Below are positions 26,800 through 50,249 of a DNA stretch of 64,000 nucleotides, piece after piece (the stretch's first letter is position 1; each line of letters starts with the position of its first letter). Origin of the DNA: Lepidurus packardi (lineage: Eukaryota; Arthropoda; Branchiopoda; Notostraca; Triopsidae); assembly GCA_023053545.1 (NCBI GenBank), contig JAKZAN010000005.1, positions 12,834,001 through 12,898,000 of the forward strand, written 5' to 3'. Below the pieces are notes generated by a model. It had not been told where the DNA came from and made no database searches. It saw only the letters and a list, made by a program, of their open reading frames with translations. The position numbers and the translations under genes were made by a program.

Positions 26800-27815
26800 G
26801 TTGCTTTTAATTGCCTTGAATTTGATAATTTTGGAGAATTTGATTATTTTGGAGATTTTTTGTTGGAGAATTTGATGATTTTGGAGAGGTAAGAGACAGC
26901 GTAAGAAAGTGCGAATTTAAAGAGATGGTAGTAAGAATATGCGCCTTTAATTTTCTATGAATACATTCGACTTGAATTGCCCCTAAACTGAAAGGAGTTG
27001 GACTATTTGGTAATTCAATTTAGGGAAGGGTTAAGACGTCTAAGAGAATTTGATAATTTTGATCATTTGATGAATTTGATCATTTTGGAGATTTTGGAGA
27101 GGTAAGAGACAGCGTAAGAAAGTGCGAATTTAAAGAGATGGTAGTAAAGAATATGCGCCTTTAATTTTCTATGAATACATTCGACTTGAATTGCCCATTG
27201 AAGAAGTTTGACTATTTGGTAATTCAATTTAGGGAAGGGTTAAGACGTCTAAGAAAATTTGATCATTTTGATCATTTGATCATTTGATGAATTTGAGCAT
27301 TTTGATCATTTGCTGAATTTGATCGTTTTGATCATTTGATGAATTTGATCATTTTGATCATTTGATGAATTGGATCATTTTGATCATTTGATGAATTGGA
27401 TCATTTTGATCATTTGATGAATTGGATCATTTTGATCATTTGATGAATTGGATCATTTTGATCATTTGATGAATTGGTTCATTTTGATCATTTGATGAAT
27501 TTGATCATTTTGGAGATTTTGGAGAGGTAAGAGACAGCGTAAGAAAGTGCGAATTTAAAGAGATGGTAGTAAAGAATATGCGCCTTTAATGTTCTATGAA
27601 TACATTCGACTTGAATCTGAAAGGAGTTTGACGATTGAACTGAAAGGAGTTGGACGATTGAACTGAAAGGAGTTGGACGATTGAACTGAAAGGAGTTGGA
27701 CGATTGAACTGAAAGGAGTTGGACGATTGAACTGAAAGGAGTTGGACGATTGAACTGAAAGGAGTTTGACGATTTGGTAATTCAATTTAGAGAAGGGTTA
27801 AGACGTCTAATCTTG
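26800..27815. repeat. Nested tandem repeats between Hsp70 and opsin 1
   Basis: A composite block (AGGTAAGAGACAGCGTAAGA, then AAGTGCGAATTTAAAGAGAT and ATGCGCCTTTAAT.TTCTATG) is present three times, at about 26887, 27100 and 27525. Between them lies an array of TTTGATCATTTGATGAATT units (27255-27510) and seven copies of a roughly 21-base unit, ACTGAAAGGAGTTGGACGAT (27616-27770). Each composite copy ends with TTTGGTAATTCAATTTAG and TTAAGACGTCTAA. Confidence 0.9.
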
Positions 27816-34649: not shown

Positions 34650-35610
34650 TACTCCGTGTTTCAATTCAAGAAGGAAATCTACTTTTGCTTGGTTCATGTT
34701 TTTAGGAATTAAAGAACAGGATTGGTCCTCATTGTACTGGACCCAAGTACTTCAGGAACGTAAATATTGGTTTAAGGAGTAGGTTTTGGTTTAACATATA
34801 CATCTTAACGGTTTAGATGTAAGATAATTCTGATCCGGAATTTGAATTGAGATACACTGTCAAGTTTCATAACGCTACTGCGGCGAAAACAGGAACTAAG
34901 GGGAACATCCACTTGCTTATCACTGCGCTAAAGCATTCAAGAAGGAAATCTACTTTTGCTTGGTTCATGTTTTTAGGAATTTAAGAACAGAGGATTGGTC
35001 CCAAGTACTTCAGGAACGTAAATATTGGTTTATGGGTAGGAGCATGTACATCTTAACGGTTTAGATTTAATATAATTCTGATCAGGAATTGGAATTGAGA
35101 TACGCTGTCAAGTTTCATAACGCTACTGCGGCGAAAACCGGAACTAAGGTGAACATCCAGTTGCTTATCACTGCGCTAAAGCATTCAAGAAGGAAATCTA
35201 CTTTTGCTTGGTTCATGTTTTTATGAATTAAAGAACAGAGGATTGGTCCCAAGTACTTCAGGAACGTAAATATTGGTTTATGGGTAGGAGCATGTACATC
35301 TTAACGGTTTAGATTTAATATAATTCTGATCAGGAATTGGAATTGAGATACGCTGTCAAGTTTCATAACGCTACTGCGGCGAAAACCGGAACTAAGGTGA
35401 ACATCCAGTTGCTTATCACTGCGCTAAAGAATTCAAGAAGGAAATCTACTTTTGCTTGGTTCATGTTTTTAGGAATTTAAGAACAGAGGATTGGTCCCAA
35501 GTACTTCAGGAACGTAAATATTGGTTTATGGGTAGGAGCATGTACATCTTAACGGTTTAGATTTAAGATAACTCTGATCAGGAATTGGAATTGAGATACA
35601 CTGTCAAGTT
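34650..35610. repeat. Tandem repeat containing copies of a DUF1397 terminal-exon end
   Basis: Three to four units of about 246-250 bases (landmark GGAATT.GAATTGAGATAC at about 34838, 35084, 35334 and 35580). Each carries the last codons of gene A's final exon in antisense (TCATAACGCTACTGCGGCGA and following) plus 3' flank such as ATTCAAGAAGGAAATCTACT. Only the rightmost copy continues into the intact gene. Confidence 0.88.
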
Positions 35611-37175
35611 TCATAACGCTACTGCGGCGAAAACCGGAACTAAGGTTAACATCCAGTTGCTTATCACTGCGGTTAGCGCAGAACTAGTGGAGTGGAAGTC
35701 GCAAGGGAGTTTCCGGAGTACGACGCTAAAGAATTCCCTCATGATTTCCGCTGGTCGCTTGTTCTGGCATTGCTTAAGTTCCGCTACCGCACAGGAACTC
35801 GCGTCGGATAGCACTCTAACGTTGGTAAAGACTCCGTTAAAATTTGAAATCCCCAGACAGAATATTCTTGAGTAACTCACTTGCAGTTTTTGCTATTAAA
35901 TTCAAGAAGATCGTCCATATCATTCTTCATAAAACGCTTGAGTTTGTCCCAGCATTGATCGACACCTTTTCCTTGAGATTTGACGCATTTCTCACCGTCA
36001 TTTTTGATTAATTCTATTGTAAAAAAAAATCCATAATTTCGTATAATTAGCAATACGCCTTTAGTGTTCTATATGGAATTCTTTCTGATTCAAATATTAC
36101 ATTATATAAAAAGGAAGTTGCTTTTTCTTTACGATGTTGATAACTTACCGATATATCTCGCTCCTTTATCGTAACATGCATGATCCATGCCAGCCGATAC
36201 TGCGTTCCATATGCCGTTTAGGTTTTTTCCCTCTGTGGGAGTCAAGCATACCAGTGTTGCATCAACTAATGGACGGAGGCACTTTCGTATCGTCCCGAAA
36301 CCCCTTCAAATAGGAAGATTCACAAACTTTAGTGTTTATTTCAGTAGAATGAAACTTCAGTTTTATACAACTAACAGATCCCCAGTGTTTGTTTGAACTT
36401 ACCCACAAATGTTGTCAATCCCTTGCTGTAGGGTAAACCTGTCTGAAGAACCCGTCATAATACGAGGCAATTCATCTTGATAGTGTTGAAATGCTTCCAC
36501 AATTGGACCCAAGCATGAAAGGAAATTGGTCATTTCATTCTGTCAAGAAAGGCACCGTTAATCCTGGCCAACAAACTACAAGCATTTTGGGATGTTTTTA
36601 CTTGGATTCTGTCATACGCTGCTCGGTTCCTAGTCTGATCACGACACTTGTTTTCCAAATCATGGAAAGCGGGCACGAAGTCTGCAAAACTACCCAAAAC
36701 TTCTTGCATCTGTTTTTGTCGCTCTGAAAGCAATAGTTTGATTTACAAATACTGGAATTAAAACATTATCGATTAGCCAGCTTCAAGTGGTACTTTAAGC
36801 AACACACTATTTACTTTGGAATTCTTAGCCTATTTTTAGATTTCTTAGCCTATTAGCGTAGAGAAGAGTCTACACAGCTACGATTAGTCACAAGTTTGTA
36901 AACACTTTACGATCTACGTTACTTTAAAACGACATATACCTTTATTTAGCATGTCAAATCTAATGAAAATGAGATAATTAAAGTTGTAATTTGTTTGTAT
37001 GTTTGAGTTTAATAGGATTATCTTTGGCATGAATATGTTTGTGTTGCACAAAATAAAATGTGTCTTGCCGTAAGATTTCCGCATCACTGTGTAAATTACC
37101 TTGTTGGTTACCATCTGCACCACAACCTAGGCAAAAAACAGCACAACACACTACGATTGTTTTCCAAGACGCCAT
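35611..37175 (-). CDS. DUF1397 secreted protein A (27 kDa hemolymph protein family)
   Basis: Six exons (37100-37175, 36602-36723, 36403-36539, 36149-36303, 35881-36013, 35611-35815) give 275 residues. The family is known from insect hemolymph as Cys-rich secreted proteins of unclear role. Seen: a signal peptide (MASWKTIVVCCAVFCLGCGA), a conserved central exon ending ACYDKGARYIG, and a penultimate exon with paired cysteines (KCVKSQGKGVDQCWD). The family C-terminal block is CAVAELKQCQNKRPAEI...LPC. The C-terminus is hydrophobic (ISNWMLTLVPVFAAVAL), resembling a GPI-attachment signal. Phases at all five introns match genes B and C. It is the leftmost of three tandem paralogs, and its 3' end has been amplified downstream. 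Confidence 0.85.
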
Positions 37176-38473
37176 TTCGCCAAACAATCTCATCCACACC
37201 GAACTAAGCGGAATGAATCCGATCGTTTTCAAACGCTAATGGATTTTTTTAAACAACAAACTCCCCTTTTATAGCCAGAAAAAGCTGGATGTGGTTAACC
37301 CAAGCCGAGATACAATGGAATGTTAAACTAATAGGCACTGAAAACGTATGCTCTGGAAAATACATGTTGAAATCGGAAGTAACATTGGTTGTGGTTTGTG
37401 AAATGGAAGAATGACGCTCTATTTCGTTTCATTTTCATTGCGTTTCTTTCTCTGCTTAGAAAATAGACAAATACATCAAATGTCAAAAAAGTATGTATAA
37501 TACAAACTTCGATTGCGTACAACGTACAGTACGTTCACGGGTTTAAGGGAATACGTAGGGATTTTTCCTACGAAATTTTTCCTAAGAAATAATTAACCCA
37601 AGTCGGTAAGGAATTTTATTGCTTTTCTTTCTCTGATGAGGAATTAGAAAAACTCAGAAAATCGTGTATCAAAGATGTGTATTACTCATAACTTCGATTG
37701 TGTACAACGTACAACATATCTGTTGGTTAATATGAAATATAATTAAATGAATGTAAAAGTTTGTCTGCCGTATAGTTTCATTATAATTAGTATAACTTTC
37801 GCAACTTTAGGAAATATAAGGCAAAACTATCTTCTGCAATAGAAGAAGAATAGAAAATGAATAGAAAATCCAATATCAACGTCGTAAAACGAGGGTAATG
37901 AGAACAGCAGTCAAAGTTAGGAATGTATCAAAGATTGGCCGAGTTGTTTTTCGTTTCAGGAATGGGATCCGAACTCAGAAAGCGCTAGATTGTTTAAGTT
38001 ATGTTGGATTGCAATGGAATATTAGTTACAGGTCCAAGTTGCAATGAAAGTGATGGCCGTGAGGTTATGCGGCGAATGTGTATAATAAATAACACGGATT
38101 TAGAGACAAGTAAGGGATAAGTAAGGGATTTTTCCCTACCCAAAACACTGTAAATGAAATTCTAACAAACAACAACATGGACACTGGAAATGAAACTGAA
38201 CGTTTTCTTAATTCGTAACTTTAATTTAGAAACAAAAGTTTGCAATGGAATATTAGTTACAGGCCCAAGTTGCAATGAAAGTGATGGCCGTGAGCTTATG
38301 CGGCGAATGTGTATAATAAATAACACGGATTTAGAGACAAGTAAGGGATAAGTAAGGGATTTTTCCCTACCCAAAACACTGTAAATTACATTCTAACAAA
38401 AAACAACATGGACACCGGAAATGAAACCGAACATTTTCTTAATTCATACCATTAATTTAGAAAGAAAAGTGAA
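37176..38473. other. Intergenic region with relic and tandem duplication
   Basis: No intact gene. At about 37790-37990 is a decayed antisense copy of the end of a gene-C-like terminal exon (AAGTTAGGAATGTATCAAAG, GCCGAGTTGTTTTTCGTTTC). A block of about 230 bases is duplicated in tandem at 38012-38240 and 38242-38465 (landmark GCAATGGAATATTAGTTACA, also TGATGGCCGTGAG.TTATGCG). The gene A promoter should lie just right of 37175. Confidence 0.6.
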
Positions 38474-40129
38474 CTAAGGTGACGATCCTGTTCCTTTAAC
38501 AAGGTTTTTCTTGCAAGGAAAATTGTGAAGTACTGCGTTAAAGAAGCCCTCCAGGTTTTCAGCTGGTCGCTTGTTGGGACATTGCTTAAGTTCATTTACA
38601 GCACAGGAACTGGCGTCGAAAAGCACGCTAGTATTGGAAAAGAACACAAGTTAAATTGACCCAAATGACTAAATAGGCTTTTGCGTAACTCACGTGCAAG
38701 TTTTCTTATTAAACTCAAGAACGTCTTGCCATGGCTCCTTTTCTAAAGTCATGATTTTGGCATGGCATTCCGTTACACCTTCATCACGAGATCTCACGCA
38801 TTCCTCAGCGTCATTTTCCATGAATTCTGCAGAGAAAAAATTCCGTAAAATTCCCATAATTACTATGAAACCTTACATATATGGCAGGTTTTATATTAAA
38901 GGATTTATACGCGGTTTTGATGGATTTTGATCAAACTTACCGATATATCGTGATCCGTTTTGATGACATAAATAGTCAACGCCATCGAATAGAGCGTTCC
39001 ATATGCTCATTATATTTTCTGCTTCTTTGGGAGTGAAACATATCAGTACCGCGATTACTAGTGGACGACCACATCTTTGTAACTTCGAAAAGGCACTGTA
39101 AAAAAACGATGGAAAATCCAAGATTTTAAGAATTTCTTAAGAAATTTCTTAAGAATTTCGATTCAGGTGAAAATGAAGCATCAAGACACACTTTGTTAAG
39201 ACTTACTCGCAGGTTTTTGTCAATGATATCTGCATCTGCTCTTTGTCTGATACATTCGTGAACTTTTCAGGGAAGTCATCACCATAGAGCTCTAAGAAAG
39301 TCTCAAAGGGTTTCAAGCATTCTAAGGTGTTGTTCGCTTCAGCCTGCGAAGAAATGCAAGGTTGAAATAATGTAGCTACATTTTGGGTTGTAACTTACAT
39401 AGATATTATCAATCGCTTCTTGACCGTTTTTCTTAAGACACTTAGCTTCCATATCCGACATATTAGGCAAGAAACTGTCTCTACGACCTTCGGCTTCTTG
39501 CACCTTGTTTCCTTGATCTGAAACAAAAATAGTTTGATTTAGGAACACTGGAATTAAAACAGTTTTTATGAATGGCTTGGATTTGATAATTTTGTGCCAT
39601 AAAACTACGTAAGAATGTCTACACTACGTAAGAATGTCAACTACATAGAATGTCTAGCCTAGTAATACGCAGAAGAGTCTTCAGAGCTCTGAATTACCGT
39701 CACCAACCAGTAACCGTTACTTACTGTGCACGCAAACTATCGTAGATGGTTTACGTTATGATCTACGATAGTTTGCACATCTTTTTTAATATGGAATATA
39801 ACTAAACGAATCTAGTTATATAATATACATTTGAATTAATTATATTTATTTAGTGATATTTTATAACTTTATTTAGTGTATTTATTATTATTTTTTTTAC
39901 AGAAAGATAAGTTAATGACAACAAAGTTTGTCAGTCACACTAAACATTACCTAGCGAGTTGTAAGGACTTTATTTAGTTTATTTATTATTATTTTTTTAC
40001 AGAAAGATAAGTTAATGACAACAAAGTTTGTCAGTCACACTAAATATTACCTAGCGAGTTGTAAGGACCTGCATTACAACCAACGAACAAAACAGTACAC
40101 AAAACTGCTGCTGTTTTCCAAAACTCCAT
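38474..40129 (-). CDS. DUF1397 secreted protein B
   Basis: Six exons (40069-40129, 39399-39517, 39207-39343, 38941-39095, 38694-38826, 38474-38627) give 252 residues. Exons 3, 4 and 5 have the same lengths as in gene A (137, 155, 133), showing recent common origin. Seen: a signal peptide (MEFWKTAAVLCTVLFVGCNA), LECLKPFETFLELYGDDFPE, a 155-base exon ending LCHQNGSRYIG, paired cysteines ECVRSRDEGVTECH, and the block CAVNELKQCPNKRPAEN...FPC. Unlike A and C it lacks a hydrophobic C-terminal tail and ends in a short basic stretch (KKNLVKGTGSSP), so it is predicted to be freely secreted. Part of intron 1 is duplicated (39870-40068), including the donor. Confidence 0.83.
39870..40068. repeat. Two-copy repeat in gene B intron 1 including the splice donor
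   Basis: A unit of about 100 bases (TACAGAAAGATAAGTTAATG, then ACAACAAAGTTTGTCAGTCA, then TAGCGAGTTGTAAGGAC) is present at about 39870-39968 and 39970-40068. On the coding strand the last part is the donor GTCCTTACAACTC of exon 1, so the donor exists twice. Confidence 0.85.
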
Positions 40130-43650: not shown

Positions 43651-46600
43651 ATGCAGGTGGATTTAAGAAAGGTAAGTCTTGCTTTCGTACTTGTCGAGAA
43701 ACGAGCGCTTGAACTTGGCGTTGTTGACAGATAGCAAATCTTTATTTTGGTAAGATAAAACCGTCCGGTCTCTATCTGTACCTTGTTCTTCCCTTCTTGG
43801 TGTATCTTGTTGTCTGGGTACATATCACCTTGTTCCTATCTAGGTCGCGGGAAGCCACCTTTCCTTGTATGAAGCTTGGTATGATCAGGTAAAAGGGAAA
43901 AAGCCTTTAAATTATATATCACTCGATTGATATTCGATCCGAATGACGAATACAAAATTGACGTTCTTATTGTGCAGGTCGATCCCAACAATGCTGGCAA
44001 CATTAGAGCTTTGGATGCGGCACGTTTCTTGAAAAAATCCGGTCTCCCGAGCACAATCTTGAGCAAAATATGGGAATTATCAGATCCGTACGGCCGAGGC
44101 TTTTTGGACAAAACCGGGCTGTTTCTGGCTTTAAAGTTAGTCTCTTTGGCCCAAAACGGATTAGAAGTGAGCGTCTCGAACGTCGCGCTGGAAACGCCCC
44201 CTCCTAACATGGTAAAAAGACGAAAACTCGCTCTCCCTGACCTTTCTTTTCACTTTTTTCGTGGATATTAGGGCGAATTACCACCTATGCATGGATGGCC
44301 TCCTATGCCAATGATGTCAGCGCCTAACACTTTCACATCGCCTCCAGTGAGCACGCAAGGCTTAGACTGGTCTGTGAAACCCGATGATGCTGCCAAATAT
44401 AACGCGTTGTTCGACTCATTGGAACCCCAAAACGAGACTCTCTCAGGAAACAAAGTACTCCCTGCAAACCGGAATCCTTCACTTTGTAACTTTGTAACGT
44501 TTCATTTCATACCAGGTTCGTGGCGCTTTGATGAACTCGAAGCTGCCAGTGAAAACGCTGGGGAAAATCTGGGATTTGTCCGATCTGGACAAGGATGGAG
44601 CGTTGGATCGGCACGAATTCACAGTGGTGAGTTCCTTTGATTCCTTTCCTTCCAATTCCATTTCAGAAGGAGCTCGTCGAGCCCAAACTACACTGATTAG
44701 AGAGCCTAGAATCCGTGTTAGACAAGCATGTTCTAGTTCTCGTTCATGTTCATGTTTTGAAAGTCCTTAAGCGAGCATGTTTAAATGTTGGGCACAACTG
44801 CAGGCTATGCATCTAGTCTATAAAGTCTTGGATGGCTACCCGTTGCCCACGACATTACCTGAGCCTTTAGCTGCGCCCAAGTATACGCCTTTCTCTTCCA
44901 TGACGTTCGACCGGAAAACGTCATTAGCAGGAGCAGTTGCTGTTCTGCCTCCTCTGCCCCCCATGGCTGCCGAATTCAAGGTAAAACCAATCAAAAATGG
45001 TAAAAAAAGTAAAAAAGAAGAGATAATTGAGCTTGATTCTTTCAATGTGCTTAATTCGTGCCACGAACTTTGCTTTCTAGAAGTAGGATGTTGATTGCGG
45101 GATGCTGACTACACATTGTTTATCGTTTTAGGGTCCGTTACAGCCGCCTCCTATTCCTGTGTTACCGTGGGTGGTGTCGTTGGCTGATAAGGCCAAATAT
45201 GAGGCCATGTTCCAAGTCGCGGATGTGGATAGAGACGGATTTGTGTCCGGGCTAGAGATTAAGGACGCGTTCCTCCAGTCGGGATTGCCCCAGCCCATCT
45301 TGGCTCATATATGGTAGTAAAAAACGACGGATTTATTGAATTCCACCTTCAATTAGACATTACATTCAATTAGCATTGGGGTCAGCCAAGTTTATGAGTT
45401 TTAAAAGTAACAAAAATGGCTCTCAGTAGAAAACGTCACCTTCATTACTCTTAGTAATGGAGGTGATTTTGTCCTCTTCTTTTTTTAGTAATTGGAGGTG
45501 ATTGAGTCCTCTTAAATCCTCGATTTAACTGAAAAAAGTTGAAAATTCGTTGGAAAAGTGACCAGTTTTGCCCCAAAATGGGATTTTCCTATTCTTTACA
45601 GCTATTTTCATATTATTACACATTTTTATTATTCTTTACAGGAATTTTTGTAGATTGTGAAGAGATTCTGTTGATAGCACGAGACTGTCGACGTAAAGCA
45701 GCGTTCCCTTTAACGAATTTCACGCTTTTTTCAGAAAAAATGGCTGAAAAGGGAAAATGAATGGCAAATATTTGTTTTTTCCAGGAACTTGTGCGACATT
45801 GGGCAGACGGGGAAGCTGAATGTGGAGCAGTTTGCCTTGGCCATGTGGCTCGTCCAGAAGAAACTAGTAGGCGGAGAACTCCCTGCGGTATTAACACCCG
45901 AAATGGTGCCACCTTCCTTACGACCAGCGAGCGAGCCTGTAAAAGACGAGAGCGCGAACGCCGAATTGGAAGAAATTGCCAAGGAAATTGAGAGCATGGC
46001 CCTCGAAAAACGACTCTTGGAGAGTGAAATAGCGCAAAAAGAAGCAGACATTCAAATAAAACAAGGAGAAGTACGATCCTTGCAGGTATTGAGCCAAGTT
46101 TGCTCCTCCAAGCCAATAAACTAGTCAATTCATTCTACATTTAATGTGGATTTTTTCTGGATAGACGGAATTCGAAACGTTATCAGCCACGTTACGACAG
46201 TTGGAAAACCAGAAGAAAGAAGCTCAAAAGCGTTTGGATGATCTAAGCCATCAGGTAAAACGATTTCTCTGTTTAAAAAGTCCAAGGAAGCACTTCTTGT
46301 GTGATTTTCGAGTGAAATTTTGAGTTTATGATTTGAAGCTTGGATTTGAGTTGATTTTGCACGGTTTTTACAGCAAGTGGCATTAGAGCATGATTTGAAA
46401 GTGGTCAGACAAGACTTGGCTGCTGAGGAAGTGCAGGTAAGGCGATTTTCTGTGTGAAATTTCCCTTTTTCGAGTTCAGCTCCATTAGTTTTTTGTTTCC
46501 GGTAGTTGTCCGTTGTGTAGAATCGCTAGATTTGACCATTTCCTCGAATATTAATGGATGGATTCAATCTTATAGGTTATAACTTTGCGAGCTCAATTGG

Positions 46601-49600
46601 GCGAGCAGGAAAAAGCCCTGAAAAGCCAAGAAGAGGAAATGGCCGGCAAGCGACAAGAGTTAAATCAGCTGAAACAAGAAGAAAATAAGATTGAAAACGA
46701 TGTGGCGGCCTGCAAAAACACACTCGAGTCCCTTAACCGGAATCTTCAAGACACGCAACTGCATATCAGTCAGGTAATACCTCAATTTTGGGAAGAAATC
46801 GGTCAATTTTGAGGAATTCCGATTGATATCAATACGAATAATTATATATAATACGAATTTCATATTAAAATAATTTTTTAAAGTCGATAGGTTGAACCAA
46901 TCTCGTTGTTCTTTTATTTGTGCAGAGGTAATCTTGAAAATAGATCAATCTTGGGAAGAAATCTGTCAATTTGGAGGAATTTCGATTGATATCAATCTTT
47001 GATTGATATCAATCTTTAAGGTCGATTGATACGAATAATCATATACAATACGAATTTCATATTAAAATAATTTTTTAAGGTCGATTGAACCAATCTTTGT
47101 GTTCTTTTATTTGTGCAGAGGTAATCTTGAAAATAGCTCAATCTTGGGAAGAAATCTGGCAATTTGGAGGAATTTCGATTGATATCAATTTTTGATTGAT
47201 ATCAATCTTTAAGGTCGATTGATACGAATAATCATATACAATACGAATTTCATATTAAAATAACTTTTTAAGGTCGATTGAACCAATCTCGTTGTTCTTT
47301 TATTTGTGCAGAGGTAATCTTGAACATAGATCAATCTTGGGAAGAAATCTGGCAATTTGGAGGAATTTCGATTGATATCAATTTTTGATTGATATCAATC
47401 TTTAAGGTCGATTGATACGAATAATCATATACAATACGAATTTCATATTAAAATAACTTTTTAAGGTCGATTGAACCAATCTCGTTGTTCTTTTATTTGT
47501 GCAGAGGTAATCTTGAACATAGATCAATCTTGGGAAGAAATCTGGCAATTTGGAGGAATTTCGATTGATATCAATTTTTGATTGATATCAATCTTTAAGG
47601 TCGATTGATACGAATAATCATATACAATACGAATTTCATATTAAAATAACTTTTTAAGGTCGATTGAACCAATCTCGTTGTTCTTTTATTTGTGCAGAGG
47701 TAATCTTGAACATAGATCAATCTTGGGAAGAAATCTGGCAATTTGGAGGAATTTCGATTGCTATATAAAAAGAATTTCACGTTTCAGATTTTCACATTAA
47801 AATAATTTTTTCGTTTTTTAAGGTTGATAGGTTGACTAAATCTGTGTGTTTTTTCTTTGTGCAGGTCAAGGCGAAGATGACAATGCTGGAGGAACAACAA
47901 AGACAGATGCAAGATGCTCTCTCGGCCTTCGATTTGGCTCTAGAAACCGAAGATGCCACAGTAGCAGGCGATTATTTGAATTCGACATTGTCGCCCACTT
48001 TCCAAGATCCGGAATTCCTGCGGATGGACACGCCCTCCAGGAATACGCCTTCTCATACGAATGGAACCAAATCCCCTTTTGGAGTAATGTTCCTTTTCTT
48101 CATTTTCTGTCATTTTTGAATGGATTATTTGAGGGAAATATGCTTTTATTTTTATTTCATTTTATTTATTTTATTTTTAGTTCAAACTTTTCTTTTTCTA
48201 ATTTGGTATTGATTTTTTCTAATTATTTCTATTTTTTATTTTCTATTTTATTTCTATTTTCTTAATATTATTTCTATTTTATTTCTATTTTCTTAATATT
48301 ATTTCTATTTTCTAATGATCTTTTTTTTATTTTTTCTAATTTTTTCTATTGATTTTTTACTTTTTCTTGTGTTTTTGAATGGTTTATTTGAGGGAAATAT
48401 GATTCAAACTTTGATTTTTTCTGATTCTTGTTTGTATGTTTTAGGAAACGGATCCTTTTTCTAGTCATACTGCGCCTGCACGGCCTCCTCTACCACCAGT
48501 CAATGGAGATCCTTTCGGTGATTCTGATTTCTTCAGCAAAGGTTAGGTTTCCTTTTCAAAAAATGCTAGAATTTGTTAAGAATTCATTGAAATTCGATTT
48601 TTATTTATTTTTTTTATTTTTTTTAGCGAATTCGACGAGTCGAGTGACAGGGACGGATCCTTTTGGTGCTTCAGCAGATCCGTTTGTTAGACTCTTTGGT
48701 CCTCCAAGCCCTACCACACCCGTACGCTCATTCTCGAATGTCATTGAATTTTCCATTTATTTCATGTTTTGATTCTTGAAGATTGATCCCTTTGCTCCGT
48801 TCGACGCGTTTGGCTCAGCCGTCAACTCTGCTCCTACGGTAAGCTCATCTTGGCCTTTTTAGTGTTGAAGGAATCTTTGACATCGATTCAATTCTGTTTT
48901 TCAATAGGGAGCTGGGAGCGATCCGTTTGGGAGTGACCCGTTTGGGGCTCCTAGGGCTGAATCGCCTACTCCGGCACTGCCTCCTAAGAAAGCCAAGCAG
49001 CCGCCCCCACGGCCAGCGCCCCCTAAGGCTACTGGAGCAAAACCTCAGCGTCCAGCCCCGCCCATTGCCAAAAATGACCCGTTTGCTGCCGCGCCCGTGT
49101 CCTCGAGCGCCAAAAGCGATCCCTTTGGGGGCTTTGCCGATTTTGCCAATTTTGAAAGCAAGGTAAGCCGTATGCGTCAACTCGGCGGCTTTACTTACAA
49201 CTCCGCAACGCCCCCTTTACCCCCCAGAAAATAACTGCCCTCTCTCAGAGAAATTCAATCTTAATCTCCCTTTTTTTCCCAAATCAAAAAAAAAAAAATA
49301 CAAATCTTGCTAGTCTTGTCTGTGAATCTCTGTGTGACTAACAAACTAACCGGTGTGTGTCCCTCTTTCTTCCCCTTCATTTATTTTTTTGGACAATTTA
49401 TAGCCCTGATTTGAATTTTTTATAATTTAATTGATTTTTATGAGTTTTAAGGTTTAGTTTTTTTGTGTTTTTTTTTTGGTTATTGGTTTTTTTTCGGTTG
49501 TGTCACACGCCATCATGTAGTTCTCCAGTACTGGCGACGAAGGCGATGCGTGGAGTGGCTTGAGCAGCAGCAGCATAAGTTCCAGTACTTGGAGCAATTC

Positions 49601-50249
49601 CAAGAAATTAAAACCGCCCAGTTTCCCAGCTCCGGTACCTATTCAAGCTTCGTCCCCTCAATCGCCTCGGTACGCTGAATTTGAGTTCACGGAAGATCCT
49701 TTCAAAGATGTGAAATTCGGGGATTTGGATTTTGGGGCCAACGATGCCGATCCCTTCGGCGACGCGTTTTCGCCCAGTTCCACTAAAAACGGAGTGGTCG
49801 ATCCCTTTGCGGCCCCAACGTCTAGCCTCCAAACTAAAAACGAAGTGAACTTAAAGAAGAACGGCTGGGATGCGTGGGACGAGAGTGCTAGTACTCCCAG
49901 TACCACCGAAAGCTCGAGTTGGGATGTCGAGCTACCCGAAAGGGACCCCTTTGGGAGTAGCGGAGCCGAAGATTCGTTTTCGAGTGCGAAACTGAGCAAA
50001 GCCTCTTCAGGGTTCGTGGCCAGTACCTTGAAGAGCAAATTGGGCCTCAAGCTACCCCTAGTTTCCCCCCATAAAAGCAAGAAAATCGGGCAAGAGGAGA
50101 ATCAGCTCGCTTGGGTGGCAGCCGAGAGTTTACGCGAAGAAGAAGAACGTCAAAAGCGCATCGAATTACGGGAGCAGGCCGATTTGGAATTAGCGTTGGC
50201 GCTGAGTCAATCCGAGATGGAAACACCTACAAAAGATCGTTTGATTTGA
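43651..50249 (+). CDS. EPS15: EPS15 endocytic adaptor
   Basis: Seventeen exons (43651-43671, 43844-43888, 43978-44211, 44272-44454, 44516-44626, 44804-44980, 45132-45313, 45785-46085, 46165-46254, 46374-46436, 46576-46773, 47865-48083, 48445-48541, 48627-48721, 48782-48838, 48908-49162, 49521-50249) give 1018 residues. EPS15 is a scaffold of clathrin-coated pits that binds AP-2 and ubiquitinated cargo. Seen: three EH domains ([56 protein letters not shown]), a Pro-rich linker, a long coiled coil, about 13 AP-2-binding DPF motifs and C-terminal ubiquitin-interacting motifs ([14 protein letters not shown] and [12 protein letters not shown]). Exon 1 is only seven codons (MQVDLRK), so the N-terminus is the weakest part. 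Intron 11 is a 193-base-period tandem repeat. Confidence 0.95.
46774..47864. repeat. EPS15 intron 11: 193-base tandem array with acceptor-donor fusions
   Basis: After the true donor (GT at 46774) the intron repeats at an exact 193-base period. The junction TTATTTGTGCAGAG|GTAATC places GT at 46928, 47121, 47314, 47507 and 47700, before the true acceptor CTTTGTGCAG at 47864. Each unit carries a pyrimidine-rich stretch, a CAG and a GTAAT. The first and last partial units match the intron ends, so the repeat unit is the ancestral intron itself. Confidence 0.92.
48120..48420. repeat. TTTCTATTTTCTAAT-type simple repeat, EPS15 intron 12
   Basis: T-rich imperfect repeats of TTTCTATTTT and TTAATATTATTTCTA. 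GAGGGAAATATG recurs at about 48130 and 48390. Confidence 0.7.

Follow-up and report, generated by a model that had tools for sequence, protein, structure and literature searches.

Intron 11 of an EPS15 homologue in Lepidurus packardi holds one fused acceptor-donor junction five times at equal distances. This raises two questions: how such an array arose within a single intron, and whether its junctions are recursive (ratchet) splice sites, as had been proposed in the first-pass annotation of this DNA. They were approached using the window, i.e. the whole analyzed stretch of 64,000 nt, together with searches of the organism's own genome.

Structure of intron 11

The 16 introns of the gene model were placed by hand using conserved EPS15 sequence and splice signals, and the start at position 43651 was assumed. 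After splicing, the model is one open frame throughout, from 43651 to the stop at 50249. The encoded protein matches the Pfam EH family in three stretches (1.4e-49), the best relative of its second EH domain among solved structures is EPS15 (3.5e-32), and DPF repeats were found in the C-terminal part. Intron 11 (number 11 of 16; protein junction ...LHISQ|VKAKM...) is the longest in the gene, the other 15 introns being 60 to 471 nt in length. Its donor at 46774 and its acceptor at 47864 had been annotated correctly, since joining both results in an uninterrupted EPS15 frame. The exon pair flanking the intron was found once in the own genome. The features of the locus are:

43651..50249, forward strand: EPS15 homologue, 17 coding exons, 1018 aa, three EH domains, DPF-rich C-terminal part
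46576..46773, forward strand: exon 11, ending in ...CATATCAGTCAG
46774..47864, forward strand: intron 11, phase 0, 1091 nt, containing the entire array of intron copies
46774..46927, forward strand: unit 0, 154 nt, diverged copy, from the true donor GTAATA to TTTGTGCAG plus AG
46923..46933, forward strand: junction 1, CAG-AG-GTAATC, repeated at +193, +386, +579 and +772
46928..47120, forward strand: unit 1, 193 nt, 7 differences to each of units 2, 3 and 4
47121..47313, forward strand: unit 2, 193 nt, 2 differences to units 3 and 4
47314..47506, forward strand: unit 3, 193 nt, identical to unit 4
47507..47699, forward strand: unit 4, 193 nt, identical to unit 3
47700..47864, forward strand: unit 5, 165 nt, chimeric, the first 61 nt as unit 4 and the remainder an old diverged copy up to the true acceptor
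47865..48083, forward strand: exon 12, starting with GTCAAGGCG

The junction TGTGCAGAG|GTAATC was found, as described before, with its GT at 46928, 47121, 47314, 47507 and 47700, spaced by exactly 193 nt. Tandem Repeats Finder (TRF) reported one row on the array with a period of 193, 4.8 copies, 97% matches, 0% indels and a score of 1732. Cutting the intron at the junctions results in six head-to-tail units of 154, 193, 193, 193, 193 and 165 nt, an ordinary intron size for this gene. All six copies could be aligned and the outer ones end at the true splice sites, which bears out the earlier suggestion that an ancestral intron was concatenated about six times. Six copies of one ancestral intron, joined head to tail, thus make up intron 11.

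Unit 0 aligns to every full unit with 73 to 74% identity and to unit 5 with 74% up to the acceptor. Local alignments were compared with 2,000 dinucleotide-preserving shuffles. The unit 5 tail matched unit 0 with a score of 64 (best shuffle 34), the match extending to the final base of the CAG, and the beginnings of units 0 and 1 matched with 86 (shuffles 33). The first and last partial units, which had been said to resemble the intron ends, are therefore both diverged copies. Between units 5 and 4 there is one difference in the first 65 bases; beyond this point unit 5 is the old copy. The match stops at the exon edge on both sides. Immediately before the donor, the exon and the internal junctions have just the AG in common; after the acceptor, AGGTAAT of the junctions stands against GTCAAG of the exon.

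Each of the head-to-tail copies has the 5′ and the 3′ end of the intron, as is characteristic when an existing intron is duplicated in tandem. Exon sequence from the flanks, which was carried along in the described case of TOUCH3 but does not strictly define such an event, is limited here to the two bases AG. The near-perfect periodicity at lag 193 is restricted to approximately 46894 to 47764, beginning within unit 0 and ending within unit 5.

Within the full units a 17-bp tandem repeat is found, which is built on the palindrome GATTGATATCAATC. The palindrome occurs twice in unit 1 (46984 to 47017) and once each in units 2 to 4 (47194, 47387 and 47580). It allows the RNA of the intron to fold into a hairpin and may mark a small duplication that lengthened the unit. 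The predicted RNA fold of unit 3, which contains the hairpin from the palindromic stretch, was not unusual (z of −1.5; 13 of 200 shuffles were as good).

Splice-site strength and consequences for the reading frame

The splice sites were scored with a weight matrix built from only the 15 other introns of the gene, each of these being scored with itself left out. The internal donors reached 8.9, exceeding nine of the 15 other donors (0.2 to 10.7), and the true donor 9.8. The internal CAG acceptors scored 9.1, which is above 12 of the 15 other acceptors (−6.0 to 11.4), and the true acceptor 11.7. At each junction GAG and GT abut directly, with the strong CAG acceptor two bases before the donor. 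The adjoining GAG scored 0.9, exceeding three of the 15 other acceptors. When both strands of the window were scanned for fused acceptor-donor sites with a gap of 0 to 4 nt, using the junctions' own scores as thresholds, six sites were found. Five of them are the junctions of this array, which are thus more than expected by chance.

A yUnAy motif 12 to 50 nt upstream was present for none of the five internal acceptors, for 11 of the 15 other introns and for the true acceptor, at a background of 53%. A distance of 15 to 40 nt gave the same counts at a background of 41%. This is only a hint that the internal acceptors may be weaker, with poorer branch sites, and the hint is weak because of the high backgrounds and because the five copies are not independent.

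The first-pass annotation had noted that use of the first CAG leaves a two-base AG ahead of GTAATC. This applies to every junction, all of which read CAG-AG-GTAATC. When a CAG and the GT that follows it are used, one AG per junction is retained in the mRNA. Retention of one, two, four or five AG shifts the frame, with stops 5, 80, 7 and 82 codons past the junction, respectively; retention of three keeps the frame and adds RE (REVKAKM). The proteins predicted after one to five such events are 540, 615, 1020, 542 and 617 aa in length. If unit 0 or one full unit is retained, a stop follows 12 or 24 codons on, respectively. With precise use of GAG no AG is retained and the mRNA is normal.

Since five steps leave 10 nt and thereby a frameshift, stepwise removal via the better acceptor would yield no full EPS15 protein. 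The normal protein requires either a final ligation of 46774 to 47864, in one step or after nested removal, or ratcheting through GAG. The annotation of the junctions as recursive sites could not be upheld in this form, as the zero-base step needs the GAG (0.9) with a CAG of 9.1 lying two bases earlier. Normal mRNA thus depends on a long splice, nested removal or a poor acceptor, and for this reason the ratchet reading was rated low. The accompanying claim of intron concatenation was accepted, on the basis of the six copies and their outer ends at the true sites. A location in a long intron, which is typical but not absolute for ratchet points, does not apply to this intron of 1.1 kb. The internal sites may still be used in splicing.

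A two-base exon between two introns would not be impossible in principle. According to excerpts from PMC4674806, a one-base exon is accurately spliced in Arabidopsis, and swapping the one base for two resulted in incorrect splicing in rice protoplasts. In the EPS15 homologue, such an exon would be harmful because of its effect on the reading frame, except when it is included three times.

Genome searches and the background of tandem duplication

In the own genome, at least seven matches were found for unit 1, at least one for the unit 5 tail and at least six for unit 0, all of them within intron 11. The search with the unit 5 tail, the last 100 bases of intron 11, listed no sequence besides the query even at E ≤ 1. 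As the related tails of the other units were not recovered, its sensitivity is limited. As the three own-genome searches matched intron 11 only, a dispersed repeat, an introner or a transposon-derived intron is unlikely, although diverged copies can escape such searches.

An array hosting intronic snoRNAs or miRNAs was rejected, as Rfam gave no match at gathering score between 43000 and 50500. Three matches below the threshold were obtained in this region, including mir-283 over exon 11 and unit 0 with 24.1 compared to 50 bits. No tRNA genes were found in the window by ARAGORN with the bacterial code.

The word TTTNYAGAGGTAA, which does not match the EPS15 junction itself, was found 53 times in the genome compared to 60 times for the reversed control and is not enriched. 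For TTNCAGGTAAG the counts were 349 and 254 (control). A 225-bp tandem group on contig C4, taken from the TTTNYAGAGGTAA word list, showed no evident intron context by eye. Nine TTTCCAGAGGTAA words lie about 1652 bp apart at positions 856591 to 869823 of contig C2, which suggests a long-period array.

The base rate was taken from a sample of 264 kb, consisting of the window and 20 stretches of contig C1 and of no other contig. It contains 26 TRF rows with a period of at least 60, some of which overlap; the window contributes 12 of them and the 20 stretches the other 14. The density of arrays is very uneven, as a single 10-kb stretch of contig C1 holds eight of these 14 rows. Fused acceptor-donor sites were found in one of the 26 long-period rows, the EPS15 array. 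Scanning both strands of the sample with acceptor and donor scores of at least 6 and a gap of 0 to 6 nt gave 66 fused sites, of which five belong to the EPS15 array. Tandem duplication is therefore common in the 264-kb sample and its phasing to splice sites is rare. That the splice-phased array is the exception (1 of 26) is as expected without a splice-directed mechanism. As a rough guess, one such case per genome could arise through chance breakage.

Several other arrays are located in the window. On the reverse strand, 39866 to 40068 is a 100-bp tandem duplication (two copies, 97%) in a gene with a signal-peptide-like first exon (MEFWKTAAVLCTVLFVGCNAGPYNSLG). It copies a probable exon end with its donor (CGCTAG|GTAAT) into the probable intron. 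Together with the EPS15 array, the window has two tandem duplications that cross a splice site. Between 26869 and 27540, three copies of a unit of roughly 210 bp with GGAGAGGTAAGAGACAG are present (AGAGGTAA at 26885, 27098 and 27523), separated by expanded minisatellites of the TTTGATCAT type. Further long-period arrays at 34738 to 35671 (248 bp, 3.7 copies) and 38009 to 38470 (231 bp, 2.0 copies) are without fused splice sites at the thresholds used.

Origin, removal and relation to known systems

The array is probably best explained by neutral tandem duplication at the DNA level, tolerated inside the intron and in need of no selected function. In a first step, the last two exon bases AG together with the whole intron would have been duplicated in tandem with a blunt join. 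The copies would then have diverged by small insertions and deletions, including the 17-bp tandem repeat in the 193-nt units, before unequal exchange or slippage amplified the 193-nt form. The array could persist between a working donor and a working acceptor, and the mRNA would be normal if the final ligation joins 46773 to 47865. Removal would mostly proceed as one intron, or nested with the inner copies leaving first in no fixed order, and the internal sites would compete as decoys. As the main route, strict 5′-to-3′ ratcheting would be unlikely, because the AG left behind by the strong CAG acceptor shifts the frame.

Each junction consists of exactly the intron end CAG, the AG and GTAAT, as would be expected of a blunt duplication whose start lies 2 bp inside the exon. 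An array of a segment wholly inside the intron cannot set the intron end beside its own start, so duplication of the whole intron would have come first. As the 193-bp periodicity extends only from approximately 46894 to 47764, the recent amplification was out of phase with the splice sites; it looks like unequal exchange or slippage. The splice phase itself would accordingly date back to the older duplication of the whole intron. The layering of tandem duplications (17 bp inside 193 bp) and the chimeric unit 5 fit recombination.

Some observations stand against neutral duplication. Both breakpoints of the first duplication lie 0 to 2 bp from splice sites, which is a coincidence for random breakage; its chance might be a few in ten thousand per intronic duplication, a rough guess rather than a computed value. 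Breakpoints this close to both splice sites would be explained by intron transposition, in which the excised intron was reverse spliced beside its own donor and then reverse transcribed to give the first copy. An exact event of this kind predicts CAG|GTAAT, however, and all five junctions carry the extra AG; nor was a copy of intron 11 detected at another site in the own-genome searches, so that this origin is very improbable. The identity of units 3 and 4 could also mean that the assembly is wrong in the copy number or in a part of the array. This is equally remote, as units 0, 1, 2 and 5 can be told apart by variants of their own, and the locus lies inside a contig of 13,491,636 bases.

Another observation against neutral duplication concerns removal. 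The internal donors (8.9) and CAG acceptors (9.1) are strong, and the first of them is transcribed well before the true acceptor. Early use is likely on intron-definition grounds and would need to be bypassed, suppressed or discarded. A genuine recursive ladder, in which five zero-base GAG|GT ratchet points allow unit-by-unit removal from the 5′ end, would make use of these donors, which abut an acceptor at every junction and exceed nine of the 15 others, and would give normal mRNA if GAG were used precisely. It is nevertheless improbable, given the score of GAG compared to CAG two bases earlier, the 10 nt and the frameshift left by five CAG steps, the intron length of just 1.1 kb and the amplification of the recent copies in a phase unrelated to splicing. 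A dominance of nested removal, in which the inner copies leave first as small introns in any order and 46774 is then joined to 47864, comparable to a multi-layer stwintron, is a more tenable, if still doubtful, route. Units of 154 to 193 nt are within the size range of the other introns, good sites are present at both unit ends and no trace would be left in the mRNA; single-step excision, however, accounts for the mRNA equally well. This route is compatible with neutral duplication and differs from it only in the order of steps. It is rather unlikely that the six copies are each competent for splicing and leave by a mixture of nested, skipping and recursive steps, and that the copy number varies between individuals, tuning EPS15 output via frameshifted, decayed by-products.

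The closest described process is the multiplication of an existing intron by tandem duplication. For the TOUCH3 gene of Arabidopsis, intron multiplication was reportedly described by Gao and Lynch in 2009. As summarised in the part of PMC4974935 used here, a pre-existing intron of TOUCH3 was multiplied by tandem internal gene duplication, which is likewise a DNA-level tandem duplication carrying a complete intron. Exon sequence on both sides was duplicated in TOUCH3 (PMC4974935), whereas only the two bases AG were included in the EPS15 homologue. For this reason the introns are fused, with no exon between them and no protein sequence added.

Splice sites have also been multiplied by tandem duplication of proto-splice sites. 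Examples of intron gain in the consulted sections of PMC4974935 and PMC3629103 are AGGT in ATP2A1, the potato RdRp gene and the fission yeast genes SPOG_01682 and SOCG_00815, whose introns comprise several 24-nt repeats with AGGC. Intron arose from exon sequence in the ATP2A1 and fission yeast cases, and in potato RdRp a piece crossing one intron-exon boundary was copied (PMC4974935, PMC3629103), whereas here a whole existing intron was copied.

Stwintrons, as outlined in extracts of PMC7138796 and PMC8469720, are similar in having more than one set of donor and acceptor and in being removable in one or consecutive steps. They differ in that one intron lies inside a splice element of another, whereas the EPS15 copies are complete introns side by side (PMC7138796, PMC8469720). 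A stwintron in the strict sense was rejected here, as no donor or acceptor element is interrupted in any of the junctions.

The introns of the SNORD115/116 host gene are separated by exons. This gene also has many tandem introns in one transcript, which, in the passages available from PMC11608373, encode snoRNAs, whereas no Rfam family reached the cut-off here. Drosophila ratchet points (Ubx, kuz, Bx) have a donor directly after an acceptor within the intron, an arrangement that the EPS15 junctions would share only by way of the GAG; in the portion of PMC8605326 drawn upon, they are mostly located in long introns, with a well-conserved site and an associated cryptic exon. The EPS15 array, in contrast, consists of recent, near-identical copies in a 1.1-kb intron, and zero-base splicing needs GAG because the good acceptor ends two bases ahead of the donor. 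No report of an exon-less intron concatemer was found in the titles and abstract openings of the literature searched, a coverage outside of which most subscription papers lie.

The concatemer in intron 11 is real and well defined, and it is a variant of a known process, the tandem duplication of introns. As a clean intron-to-intron concatemer it would be a natural test of how the spliceosome chooses among nearly equal serial sites, of whether units the size of an intron are spliced out on a first-come, first-served basis, and of how a frameshift-prone duplication is tolerated. If removal by mixed steps were true, a single gene would reveal in which order almost equal splice sites are used and how they compete. 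If the array is only neutral, it still exemplifies how ratchet-like fused AG|GT sites can emerge in the absence of selection.
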